Shown piece after piece: positions 12,664 to 16,730 of a stretch of DNA of 43,920 nucleotides. Position numbers and translations under genes: made by a program. The notes beneath the pieces were generated by a model. That model ran no database searches. It was given only the letters and a program-made list of their open reading frames with translations, and had not been told where the DNA came from. Origin of the DNA: Verrucomicrobiota bacterium (GTDB lineage Bacteria; Verrucomicrobiota; Verrucomicrobiia; Opitutales; Opitutaceae); NCBI GenBank assembly GCA_025352985.1, contig JANXRL010000052.1, forward strand, positions 1 to 43,920. The letters are read 5' to 3'. Within the stretch, counting starts at the first letter, position 1, and every line of letters begins with the position of its first letter.

Positions 12664-14280
12664 ATGCACTCTCCAAAAATTATTCTCATCGGCCTGCTCT
12701 CGTGCTCGTGCCTGCACGCCGAGGTCAAGCTCCCTGCCTTTTTCACCGACCACATGGTCCTCCAGCGCGACATCCCCGCGCCCGTGTGGGGCACCGCCGC
12801 CCCCGGCGAAAAGGTCGCCGTTCAATTCGCCGGCCAGTCCGTCTCCGTCACCGCCGGCGCCGACGGCCGCTGGCTCGCCAAGTTCACCCCGCTCAAAGCC
12901 TCCGCCTCGCCTCAGGTTCTTACGGTGCGCGGCACCAACACCGTTGCGATCAACGACGTTGTCGTCGGCGATGTCTGGCTCGCCTCCGGCCAGTCCAACA
13001 TGGGTTCGTCCATGAACTCCGGCTCCGCCGCCAACGCCCTGCCCGAAGCCGGCGACCCGCTGCTGCGTTTCTTCAACGTCACCAAGACCGTGGCCGCCGA
13101 ACCGCAGGCCGATGTGAAGGGCAAGTGGGAACCGTCCACGCCCGAGGCTGCGAAAAACTTTTCCGCCGTCGCCTACTTCTTCGCCAAGGAAATCCGCAAG
13201 ACGCAGAATGTGCCCGTCGGCGTGTTCAACGGCCCCTGGGGTGGCACGCCCGTCCGCACGTGGATGAGCCTCCAAAGCCTGAGCGTCGACCCCGCCGTCG
13301 CCAAGACGCTCGCCGAATGGGAGTCCGCCCTCGCCAAACACGACGCCGTGAAGGACAAGCCCGAGCTCATGGTCGCCTACTACAAGGAAATGAAAGATTG
13401 GGAAACCAACGTGCAGCCCGGCATGAAAGCCGCCAAACTTGCCGGCCAGCCTGCGCCCGCCAACGCCCGGCCCGAGCCCGAGGTGCCCGATCCCATCGCG
13501 ATGCCGTCTTCTTCCAAGCGTCCGTCCACGCCGACGATTTCCTACAACGGCATGATCGCGCCCCTCGTGCCCTACGCGCTACGCGGCTTTATCTGGTATC
13601 AGGGCGAGGCCGACGCCAGCCACGGGCTAGACTATCGCGCGCTCTTCCCCGCGCTCATCCAAGGTTGGCGCGCCGCCTGGAAGCAGGGTGATCTGCCGTT
13701 TCTCTACGTGCAGCTACCCGCCAACGGCAAGGACACCGTGCCTGTCGCCACCTCGGCCAACACCGTCCCCTGGCTGCGCGAGGCGCAGGCGATGGCGTTG
13801 CGACTGCCTGCCACCGGCATGGCGGTGACTCTGGAAATCGGCGATCCCGTCAACGTCCATCCCGACAACAAGGTTCACGCCGGCCACCGCCTCGCCCTCG
13901 TTGCCCGCGAAAAAGTCTACGGCGAGAAAATCGCCGGCACGAGCCCGCTCTACCTCGACCACACCGTCGCAGGCAACGCGGTCCGCGTGCGCTTCGCCAA
14001 CACCGGCGGCGGCCTCGTCGTCGGCACGGCGCCGTGGCGCGCCGCCGGAGTTGAACCCTTGCCGACCGACCACCTCGTCGGCTTCTACATCGCCGGCGAA
14101 GACAAACAATGGGTCGAGGCCGCCGCCCGCATCGAGAAGGATTCCGTCGTCGTTTCCGCCCCGTCCGTGGCCAAGCCCGTCGCCGTGCGCTACGGCTGGG
14201 CCAGTTCGCCCGGCGTAAACCTCTACAACAAGGAGGGCCTGCCTGTGGGTCCCTTCCGCACCGACGACTGGGCCAAGTAA
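12664..14280 (+). CDS. Secreted CE20/sialate O-acetylesterase-type esterase, short form (538 aa)
   Basis: Exported acetyl esterase with the same core as the 668-aa paralogue. The signal peptide ends at LHAE near residue 19. A beta-sandwich with LQRDIPAPVWG and ADGRWLA leads into GQSNM (Ser111), WYQGEAD from Trp311, and NVHPDNK with His399. Between these it carries a Lys/Glu-rich helical segment (about 205-285) instead of the jelly-roll insert of the other copy. It is the last exported enzyme before the cytoplasmic GH43_11-type beta-xylosidase, which begins 27 bases downstream. Deacetylation by this protein would open acetylated xylo-oligosaccharides to that enzyme. Family is firm, exact substrate inferred. 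Confidence 0.9.
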   Translation: MHSPKIILIGLLSCSCLHAEVKLPAFFTDHMVLQRDIPAPVWGTAAPGEKVAVQFAGQSVSVTAGADGRWLAKFTPLKASASPQVLTVRGTNTVAINDVVVGDVWLASGQSNMGSSMNSGSAANALPEAGDPLLRFFNVTKTVAAEPQADVKGKWEPSTPEAAKNFSAVAYFFAKEIRKTQNVPVGVFNGPWGGTPVRTWMSLQSLSVDPAVAKTLAEWESALAKHDAVKDKPELMVAYYKEMKDWETNVQPGMKAAKLAGQPAPANARPEPEVPDPIAMPSSSKRPSTPTISYNGMIAPLVPYALRGFIWYQGEADASHGLDYRALFPALIQGWRAAWKQGDLPFLYVQLPANGKDTVPVATSANTVPWLREAQAMALRLPATGMAVTLEIGDPVNVHPDNKVHAGHRLALVAREKVYGEKIAGTSPLYLDHTVAGNAVRVRFANTGGGLVVGTAPWRAAGVEPLPTDHLVGFYIAGEDKQWVEAAARIEKDSVVVSAPSVAKPVAVRYGWASSPGVNLYNKEGLPVGPFRTDDWAK

Positions 14281-14307: not shown

Positions 14308-15915
14308 ATGATCAACAATCCTGTCCTCACCGGTTTTCATCCCGATCCCTCCATCTGCCGGGTCGGCGACGATTTCTACATCGCGACGTCCACTTTCGAG
14401 TGGTTTCCAGGCGTGCGCATCTATCACTCGCGCGATCTCGCCAACTGGCATCTGGTCGGCTCCGCACTGGATCGCGTTTCCCAGCTCGACATGCGCGGCT
14501 GCCAAAACTCCGGCGGCGTCTGGGCGCCGTGCCTCACCCATGCTGACGGACGCTTCTGGTTGCTTTACACCAACGTCCGCCACCACGCCGCCGGCGTCGT
14601 GATCGACACGCCCAACTACCTCGTGACCGCCGAGCGCATAGAGGGCCCGTGGAGCGAGCCGGTGTTTCTCAACTCAAACGGTTTTGATCCCAGCCTCTTT
14701 CACGACGACGACGGCCGGAAATACGTCGTCGAAATGCAAATGGGCGAGGCCGCCACGGCGCGGCGCTTCGATGGTATCCTCATTCAAGAATACGACGCCG
14801 CCGCAGGCCGCTTGCTCGGTGATCCGGTGAAAATCTGGGAGGGCAGTCCCATCGGCATCACCGAGGGTCCGCACATCCTCAAGAAGGACGGCTGGTATTA
14901 TCTCATCACCGCCGAGGGCGGCACGTCCGTGCGTCATGCCATCAGCGTTTGTCGCAGCCGTAGTCTCTACGGCCCATACGAGCTGCATCCGCAAAACCCA
15001 ATCCTCACCGCCTATCAAAAAGAACACCTGAAACTCTGGTCCACCGGGCACGGCTGCTTTGTCGATACTCCGCGTGGCGAGTGGTTCACCGTGCATCTCT
15101 GCCACCGTCCACTGCAACGTCCCGGCCGTATGGTCCTCGACCGCGAGGAAAACAAATCCGTCCCGCTCGGTCGCGAGACATGCATCCAAAAACTCCGCTG
15201 GGACGCCGACGGCTGGCCGCGCCTCGCTCACGGCGACAACTCGCCGCGCGACACTGTAGAAGTGGATCTGCCTGCGCATCCCCGGCCCGCCGAACCCGGT
15301 CGCGTCGAGTTCGTCGGCCCCGCCTTGCCGCCGGTTTTTCAAACTCTCCGCGAGCCGCCGGATGCGTCGTGGCTGAGTTTCACGCGCCGCCCGGGCTGGC
15401 TCAGCCTGCGCGGCCGCGACTCTCTTGCCTCGACGTTCGACCAAAGCCTTGTCGCGCGCCGCCTCCAGCACCACAACGCCTCCGCCGAGACACTGCTTAG
15501 TTTCTCGCCGCGTAACTTCAAGCAGGCCGCCGGCCTCATCGCCTACTACGACCGGTTCCACTACCACTATTTACGCGTCACCGGCGCGGGACCCGGGCGC
15601 GCCAAGCTCGGCGTGTATTCCTCGGAGAACACCAAGGTCTCCCGTCACGAAGTCGCCGAGTTCCCCGTCGAGGCTGCCGCCGCCGGCGTGCGCCTGCGCA
15701 TGGAAATGCTCGGCGTCGAGCTTCGCTTCGCCTACGCCCTCGGTGCGGCCGGCGCGTGGCAGTTAGTTGACCGCGTGTTTGAGTCCACCGTGTGTGGTGA
15801 CTGGGTTTCGCCGCACAGCAGTTTCACGGGCACGTTCTGGGGCGTGTGCTGCCAGGATATGGCCACGCGCGACGCCTGGGCGGAGTTTGGCTTCCTTGAT
15901 TATAAGGTCCTCTAG
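14308..15915 (+). CDS. xynB: Beta-xylosidase, GH43 subfamily 11 type (535 aa)
   Basis: Inverting exo-1,4-beta-xylosidase of the XynB/SXA type, releasing xylose from xylo-oligosaccharides in the cytoplasm (no signal peptide). With the start at 14308 the protein begins MINNPVLTGFHPDPS, the standard N-terminus, and the catalytic triad falls at Asp13 (HPDPS), Asp127 (GFDPSLF) and Glu186 (TEGPH), almost the spacing of characterised members. An in-frame ATG at 14293 would add five residues and cannot be excluded. The second half (about 320-535) is the usual C-terminal beta-sandwich, ending FTGTFWGVCCQDM. It closes the intact part of the CAZyme run; the next gene, which overlaps its end, is a broken esterase. 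Confidence 0.92.
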   Translation: MINNPVLTGFHPDPSICRVGDDFYIATSTFEWFPGVRIYHSRDLANWHLVGSALDRVSQLDMRGCQNSGGVWAPCLTHADGRFWLLYTNVRHHAAGVVIDTPNYLVTAERIEGPWSEPVFLNSNGFDPSLFHDDDGRKYVVEMQMGEAATARRFDGILIQEYDAAAGRLLGDPVKIWEGSPIGITEGPHILKKDGWYYLITAEGGTSVRHAISVCRSRSLYGPYELHPQNPILTAYQKEHLKLWSTGHGCFVDTPRGEWFTVHLCHRPLQRPGRMVLDREENKSVPLGRETCIQKLRWDADGWPRLAHGDNSPRDTVEVDLPAHPRPAEPGRVEFVGPALPPVFQTLREPPDASWLSFTRRPGWLSLRGRDSLASTFDQSLVARRLQHHNASAETLLSFSPRNFKQAAGLIAYYDRFHYHYLRVTGAGPGRAKLGVYSSENTKVSRHEVAEFPVEAAAAGVRLRMEMLGVELRFAYALGAAGAWQLVDRVFESTVCGDWVSPHSSFTGTFWGVCCQDMATRDAWAEFGFLDYKVL

Positions 15916-16295
15916 TTTCCGCTTTCTGTCGGTCGGCCTGCTGCTGGCGCTCGCGGCGTTCGTGCGGGCCGACGTCACGCCGAACGCCTTGTTCTGCGAC
16001 CATGCCGTGCTCCAGCGCGACAGGGCGATTCCCGTCTGGGGCAAGGCCGGTCCCGGTGAAAAGATCGCCGTGCGCCTCGGCGGGAAGATCGAGGCGACCA
16101 CCACCGCCGGGCCGGATGGCCGCTGGCGGGTGCGCCTTCCCGGGCAGCCGGCCGGCGGTCCGTTCAAACTGGTCATCGAGGGCTGAAACCGCATCGAGCT
16201 GGGCGACGTGTGGGTGGGTGAAGTCCGGCTCTGCGGCGGCCAATCCAACATGGAGCGCGAGCTTGGACTCCGCCGGGGACAGCAGCCGATTGATA
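15896..16295 (+). pseudogene. Truncated CE20/sialate O-acetylesterase remnant
   Basis: Only the first 130 or so codons of a third CE20-type esterase remain. A TTG at 15896 gives a signal-peptide-like start (SVGLLLALAAFVRAD), then ALFCDHAVLQRDRAIPVWG and GPDGRWR as in the two intact copies. A TGA at 16184-16186 interrupts the frame just before RIELGDVWVGEV, the catalytic block GGQSNME survives, and after it the expected LDSAGDSS continues only in the next frame (from 16263), which is a frameshift. Recognisable sequence stops near 16295, about 30 bases before the 3' end of the tRNA-Ile gene on the other strand, so some 450-500 codons are missing. It cannot make an active esterase. Confidence 0.85.
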
Positions 16296-16324
16296 ACTCT
16301 GCTCTTCGGTGGACGGGTCTTTGT

Positions 16325-16622
16325 TGGTGGGCCCTGCGGGATTCGAACCCGCAACCAAGGGATTATGCTTACCGCTTCGGCTTTCGCCGCCGATCCGCCG
16401 CCGGATCGTTCGTGGTCTGGACCATGCCTTCACCATGTCGCCCGTGCGATTTAGGTGGGTGATTATGGCCTCTACACCTTCGAGCGGTTGCGGACACCGC
16501 TCGCTTGGCTCGGCGTTGGGAGTTTAAACCGTTCACCGAAGTTACACCTGACTACCGTCGCGTTTCCGCGCCGGCGACCCGATTTCTCAAGTCCCCTGCT
16601 CTGACCATTGAGCTAAAGGCCC
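16325..16622 (-). tRNA. tRNA-Ile(CAU), split by an intron in the anticodon loop
   Basis: Exon 1 is 16622-16590 and exon 2 is 16367-16325; joined they make a 76-nt tRNA with CCA encoded. Acceptor GGGCCUU pairs with AGGGCCC, the D arm is GCUC/GAGC, the anticodon stem is GGGGA/UCCCU, the loop is CUCAUAA, and the T arm is GCGGG-UUCGAAU-CCCGC. The CAU anticodon with AGAGCA..GACUCAUAAUC..CUUGG matches the minor tRNA-Ile, whose C34 is changed to lysidine by TilS to read AUA, rather than Met or initiator tRNA. The gene is interrupted between U33 and C34 by the 222-nt group I intron listed separately, so splicing is required for function. It lies 82 bases downstream of the glycosyltransferase gene, same strand. 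Confidence 0.95.
16368..16589 (-). ncRNA. Group I intron (IC3-like), 222 nt, in tRNA-Ile
   Basis: Self-splicing intron without an ORF. Numbering from its first base (16589): the 5' exon end GACU plus intron 1-3 pairs with 8-14, placing the exon U in the required U.G wobble at G11 and closing P1 with a GAAA loop. P2 is 16-23/28-35, also GAAA-capped. P3 core GGUG 42-45/CACC 129-132. P4 50-55/76-81 (UUCGGU/GCCGAG). P6 87-93/103-109. P7 120-124/166-170 (GGCCA/UGGUC). P8 133-136/156-159 with an inner TCGC/GCGA stem. P9 182-188/193-199, then a GAAA-capped hairpin 201-212. It ends in the omega G (AAG). Blocks such as GCCGAGCCAAGC, GAAGGTGTAGAG and CACCCACCTAA match, from memory, the Azoarcus tRNA-Ile ribozyme. 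Confidence 0.95.
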
Positions 16623-16730
16623 GACACAACAAAGAACGCGGTTACCTTCGTCATCGGCGCGAGGAGCTGCAAGCTCAACGTGACGCCGGGCGCGCCGTCG
16701 GTCGTCAACCGTGTTGCCATTCAACCGTGA
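16623..16730 (+). pseudogene. Possible C-terminal remnant of a lost + strand gene
   Basis: An open frame without a start runs from the tRNA boundary to a TGA at 16728-16730 and reads like a normal protein end: ...NAVTFVIGARSCKLNVTP, then GAPSVVNRVAIQP. Codon third positions are mostly G/C as in the CAZyme genes. It overlaps the 3' end of the convergent glycosyltransferase gene by 26 bases. Together with the truncated esterase on the other side of the tRNA, it suggests that the tRNA-Ile region replaced or was juxtaposed into a stretch of + strand genes. I do not recognise the family, and a chance open frame of this length is possible. Confidence 0.3.

Follow-up and report, generated by a model that had tools for sequence, protein, structure and literature searches.

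A tRNA-Ile(CAU) gene of a Verrucomicrobiota bacterium split by a group I intron, and its possible role as a mobile replacement copy

Group I introns with an IC3 core interrupt the anticodon loop of several bacterial tRNAs, among them tRNA-Leu(UAA) and tRNA-Arg(CCU), which differ from the case described here in both tRNA and insertion site. Two described systems come nearer: the Azoarcus-type intron of Betaproteobacteria, which shares the host, tRNA-Ile(CAU), and a small IC3 core but is inserted after U36 (site 36/37) rather than after U33; and the tRNA-fMet intron of cyanobacteria and others, which shares the U33/C34 site in a CAU tRNA but sits in another tRNA and stands apart in the tree, a placement to be read with long-branch caution. 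Introns of tRNA-Ile2 have been recorded in Acidovorax and Burkholderia, and tRNAscan-SE was not built for detecting such genes (PMC8450103). Our literature search found no paper on such an intron in Verrucomicrobiota, and the initial annotation of this DNA named no example from the phylum; the present case is not a solitary one, as the intron is present in 31 of the host family's 252 genomes.

The window (the whole 43,920-nt stretch of DNA that was analysed) belongs to a draft genome of 2.88 Mb, 92% complete and in 199 contigs. Judged by its sequence, the segment 16325–16622 is a tRNA-Ile(CAU) gene split by an IC3-like group I intron. Very probably it is a working gene, whose 222-nt ribozyme, lying between U33 and C34, would be excised by guanosine-driven splicing.

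The split gene and the fold of its intron

The gene runs from 16622 to 16325 on the minus strand; the initial annotation had the coordinates exactly right and left the strand unstated. Its parts are:

16590–16622, minus strand: tRNA-Ile(CAU) 5′ exon, nt 1–33, last base U33 (ARAGORN; intronless relatives)
16368–16589, minus strand: group I intron, IC3-like, 222 nt, with omega G at 16368 (boundaries, covariation, covariance model, MFE fold)
16325–16367, minus strand: tRNA-Ile(CAU) 3′ exon, nt 34–76, beginning with the anticodon CAU, CCA encoded (ARAGORN; intronless relatives)

Run on the joined exons, ARAGORN returned a CAU tRNA of 76 nt including CCA, with a cloverleaf that folds. In about 40 intronless genomes from the same taxonomic order, positions 1–33 and 256–297 of our query abut with zero bases between them; the intron is thus exactly query 34–255, and its site in the tRNA lies between U33 and C34. 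The proposal that two halves make up a 76-nt tRNA-Ile(CAU) around 222 nt is borne out by both. Without its intron option ARAGORN missed the gene, and with that option it shifted the junction and named the gene a tRNA-Ser; we placed the junction by the rule of U at position −1 and G as the last intron base. The exons are unbroken in intron-bearing genes across 16 genera. Identity as tRNA-Ile2 rather than tRNA-Met rests on the likeness of the joined exons to known tRNA-Ile(CAU) and on separate elongator Met and fMet genes located elsewhere in the draft genome.

The leader (16623–16637) and trailer (16316–16325) are complementary (UCUUUGUUG and CAACAAAGA) and could lengthen the acceptor stem of the pre-tRNA. 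Genes around the tRNA in the window concern sugar metabolism and transport; a truncated sialate O-acetylesterase-like frame with an in-frame stop (15767–16320, plus strand) runs into the tRNA, and its full paralogue lies at 12664–14280 of the window.

A group I core is present in the intron, comprising P3–P9 with the P4–P6 and P3–P7–P8 domains. The helices are:

16576–16593, minus strand: P1, GACU/UGA-GAAA-UCGGGUC, with the U33.G splice pair; the 5′ splice site (slash) lies between 16590 and 16589 (hand pairing, covariation)
16554–16575, minus strand: P2 hairpin with GAAA loop; both sides changed in 7 of 9 pairs among relatives (covariation)
16545–16548, minus strand: P3 5′ strand, GGUG, partner CACC at 16458–16461 (hand pairing, covariation)
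16458–16461, minus strand: P3 3′ strand, CACC (hand pairing, covariation)
16510–16539, minus strand: P4–P5, with P4 UCGGUG/CGCCGA and P5 GG/CC (hand pairing, covariation, MFE)
16476–16509, minus strand: P6–P6a (hand pairing, MFE)
16465–16472, minus strand: P7 5′ strand, including the guanosine-site G (hand pairing, covariation)
16419–16425, minus strand: P7 3′ strand, including the guanosine-site C (hand pairing, covariation)
16431–16457, minus strand: P8 and its extension (hand pairing, covariation, MFE)
16371–16416, minus strand: P9/P9a/P9b, with GAAA on P9b and a single A.C in P9 (hand pairing, MFE)

Folded by itself, the intron shows P2, P4, P5, P6, P6a, P7, P8, P9a and P9b in its MFE structure; P1 and P3 were paired by hand, P3 being a pseudoknot that such a fold cannot show. 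P3 is short, with four standard pairs, P10 has at most one pair, the window copy has mispairs in P2 (G.A) and P9 (A.C), and its folding energy, taken by itself, does not stand out (z −1.5). An alignment of 10 homologues speaks for the structure: 98.8% of cells are paired, falling to 31–43% when partners are slid by 1–3 columns; both-sided changes occur in 14 pairs; and 0 of 500 shuffles match the covariation score, with P3, P5 and P6 invariant and hence uninformative on this measure. The U33.G pair, the terminal omega G and the guanosine-site G-C of P7 (columns 199/262) are invariant in the same alignment. The U.G splice pair, the omega G and three GAAA loops (on P1, P2 and P9b) named at the outset are all there.

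The 37 other tRNAs of the draft genome include no Ile(CAU) and no Ile(UAU), those with a CAU anticodon being elongator Met and fMet only; a second intact tRNA-Ile(CAU), whose discovery together with no processing of this gene would have told against the original reading, was sought in the draft and not found, and an intronless copy may have been missed, the draft being 92% complete. As this is the sole such tRNA in the draft genome, the cell would depend on its splicing. In the mechanism that we propose, the intron would fold within the pre-tRNA and guanosine bound at the P7 G-C would attack after U33, at the P1 U.G pair; U33 would then attack after the omega G, so that the exons join into a normal tRNA; and TilS, present in the draft genome, would turn C34 into lysidine, allowing the tRNA to read AUA.

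Kinship to other tRNA group I introns

The initial annotation had named the lack of a significant match to the Rfam model RF00028 as a ground for refuting its reading, and neither the window nor the draft genome gave one. In a joint search RF00028 matched 0 of 10 verrucomicrobial 33/34 loci, the window's own included; Azoarcus-type, Leu and Arg introns scored 34–56 bits there, and a 36/37 intron of the host family (L193) scored 30. Several other tRNA group I introns likewise score under the RF00028 cut-off. A covariance model built from 33 tRNA group I introns, none from Verrucomicrobiota, gives the window a score of 73.5 bits (E 8.4e-17) and also recovers every relative tried. Since this independent model matches, we assign the intron to group I and regard RF00028 as no fair test for the lineage: its failure is a limit of the model, not a fault of the structure. 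The IC3-like fold claimed initially is upheld by this model as well as by the MFE helices, the hand-paired P1 and P3, and the covariation.

A pattern scan of named genomes recovered at least 117 loci from many phyla, hosted mostly by tRNA-Leu(UAA), tRNA-Arg(CCU), fMet (33/34) and tRNA-Ile(CAU) at 36/37 or 33/34. The tree unites the Ile 33/34 introns of Verrucomicrobiota in a single clade (100/99), which adjoins a separate clade (99/98) of the 36/37 introns; the remaining 33/34 cases (a Pirellula MAG, Accumulibacter, Pyrinomonadaceae) are placed elsewhere on long branches.

The likeness to Azoarcus drawn in the initial annotation stands for the core, of which 103 of 122 aligned bases are identical to a betaproteobacterial tRNA-Ile intron, with the P4, P6, P7 and J8/7 blocks near-identical. 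It does not extend to the site or the clade, nor to P3, which is one pair longer in the Azoarcus type: GGUGUC/GGCACC there has become GGUGU/UCACC in the window lineage, the last pair being U.U, so that one pair is lost on both strands. P5 also differs, being GG/CC in the window lineage and, for example, CC/GG in the Azoarcus type, and RF00028 finds the Azoarcus-type intron. The family's own 36/37 tRNA-Ile(CAU) intron (L193; genome G019, contig C11, 143215–143521) has an additional hairpin after P7, and its genome also holds an intact intronless tRNA-Ile(CAU).

Mobile elements in related genomes

Among the 31 intron-bearing genomes, an intact intronless copy is present in G007, G015 and G125 only. 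In these same three, and in no other genome of the family, the intron-bearing gene lies about 60–90 bp behind TniQ in a TnsB-TnsC-TniQ row. The G015 element spans 51 kb (contig C1, 1267325 to about 1318307; L202, L203, L212, L222), with 9-bp ends TGGTAAAGT/ACTTTACCA and a 5-bp duplication AATGA; here TnsB, TnsC, TniQ and terminal repeats surround the gene on one contig, and in G007 (C5, C135) and G125 (C9, C45) they do so in pieces spread over separate contigs, the far end of the G007 element, with the same duplication CGCGA, being on another contig. A transposon end lies upstream of the intronless tRNA-Ile by 13 bp in G015, 11 bp in G007 and 12 bp in G125. I-B2 and I-D CAST are Tn7-like transposons with tRNA attachment sites (PMC10293859, PMC11406308), and share with our elements TnsB/TnsC/TniQ and a tRNA gene as landing site. 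However, CyCAST homing places its element 30–33 nt downstream, whereas ours insert 11–13 bp upstream of the tRNA and, unlike CAST, bring along the target tRNA in an intron-bearing version.

Expression of the host's intronless gene may survive the arrival of such an element. In G012 the decayed end of a transposon lies about 12 bp upstream of the intronless tRNA-Ile(CAU) (C226, L301), and neither TniQ nor an intron-bearing copy was found in that genome, which weakens the view that the host tRNA is invariably inactivated when a Tn7-like element inserts. Some further elements were noted: a second pair of transposon ends in G007 (C2, 22895–53496; L224, L225; duplication CGAGA), next to which no tRNA was found; and a divergent Tn7-like element in G118 (C195, L272; TnsB 27% identical), with the start of its TnsB some 1.4 kb away from that genome's intron-bearing tRNA-Ile. 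Cargo of the G007 transposon includes Thoeris ThsA/ThsB-like genes (L197, 6654–8683) and, by reading alone, apparent type I restriction genes.

A second kind of element leaves a different trace. In G032 (L191/L192), G195 (L279/L280), G241 (L282) and G182 (L283/L284) integrase-type elements have split the intronless gene within its anticodon loop; its 5′ and 3′ parts overlap by 7–16 nt around CTCATAA, and no intact tRNA is left at the four loci. The two parts are 104.6 kb apart in G032 and 65 kb apart in G195, and in both, as in G241, they flank the intron-bearing gene, an arrangement with a chance of about 1–2% in each; G182 has its pieces on different contigs. Next to the 3′ part in G032, G195 and G182 are tyrosine integrases or, by tblastn, relatives of them. 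G032 and G195 are each assembled as a single contig, and since neither yielded an intact intronless copy, they have to rely on the intron-bearing gene; for these two genomes it is close to forced that the copy borne by the element stands in for the damaged one. Two kinds of match were set aside: short partial matches L188–L190 (G011, G015, G018), which yielded no tRNA and are missing the core of the intron, and a match in G133, whose tRNA is tRNA-Lys.

Origin and role of the intron-bearing gene

The leader of the gene in the window carries the following feature:

16630–16637, minus strand: leader motif GTTCTTTG, common to intron-bearing tRNA-Ile leaders and missing from intronless ones (26/27 vs 0/39)

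GTTCTTT occurs within 30 nt of the tRNA in 26 of 27 distinct intron-bearing leaders but in 0 of 39 distinct intronless ones (Fisher p 1.6e-17, to be read in the light that related sequences are not independent); we take the motif to resemble a boxA antitermination element. Because it is restricted to intron-bearing genes, the whole gene and its own leader appear to have spread together across the family. Gene neighbourhoods of the stand-alone loci are not conserved, and gain in place and replacement are indistinguishable from synteny.

With middling confidence we read the intron-bearing gene as a replacement part that is mobile: Tn7-like and tyrosine-integrase elements, unrelated to each other, would target tRNA-Ile(CAU), and both would carry an intron-split copy that is not targeted yet functions through self-splicing, with stand-alone copies such as that of the window being remnants after loss of the original gene. 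The window's gene would be tied to mobile elements by kinship and leader alone; no TnsB/TnsC/TniQ, terminal repeats, transposon or integrase genes were found near it. This solitary position would also fit entry of the intron into the resident tRNA-Ile in place, by reverse splicing or endonuclease homing, followed by inheritance with the host, mobile elements being irrelevant; the introns of genera g44 and g8 are monophyletic, as such a history would have it. We nevertheless consider gain in place rather unlikely, as the leader contrast suggests that the gene moved as a whole, and within genus g1 the intron of G007 stands apart from those of G000 and G011.

Much less probable still is a dead or silent relic, the intact tRNA-Ile(CAU) having been lost in assembly: the genome is a draft, and G007, G015 and G125 carry both forms, but the exons are perfect, the core is conserved with compensatory change, and single-contig genomes lack an intact intronless copy. 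Equally hard to credit is transfer of the Azoarcus tRNA-Ile intron from Betaproteobacteria, for which core identity and the neighbouring clades speak, and against which stand the different site, the shorter P3, the well-supported separation of the clades and the family's own 36/37 intron.

Returning to the replacement part, its intron site, between CU and CAUAA, lies inside all of the att cores described above. With the att core interrupted in this way, the carried copy would be no target, and the position of the intron suggests that the intron may make the spare copy immune to integration. Randau and Soll, as cited in PMC4390854 (also PMC3293823), saw disrupted tRNA genes of archaea as protection against integration. 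Both cases share the notion of a tRNA gene shielded from integration by its intron; archaeal introns are cut by proteins, whereas here the intron is bacterial, is predicted to be self-splicing and, in some genomes, is carried by the elements.

In conclusion, we describe a verrucomicrobial lineage of group I introns that is invisible to the standard Rfam model and adds a second insertion site to a host tRNA that was already known. For an essential tRNA, some genomes appear to rely on a copy that is predicted to splice itself. Should the replacement reading be true, it would offer a reason why such introns persist in bacterial tRNA genes, as a means for an element to bring a spare of its target that does not itself become a target, and it would make the old proposal on archaeal tRNA introns directly testable in bacteria.
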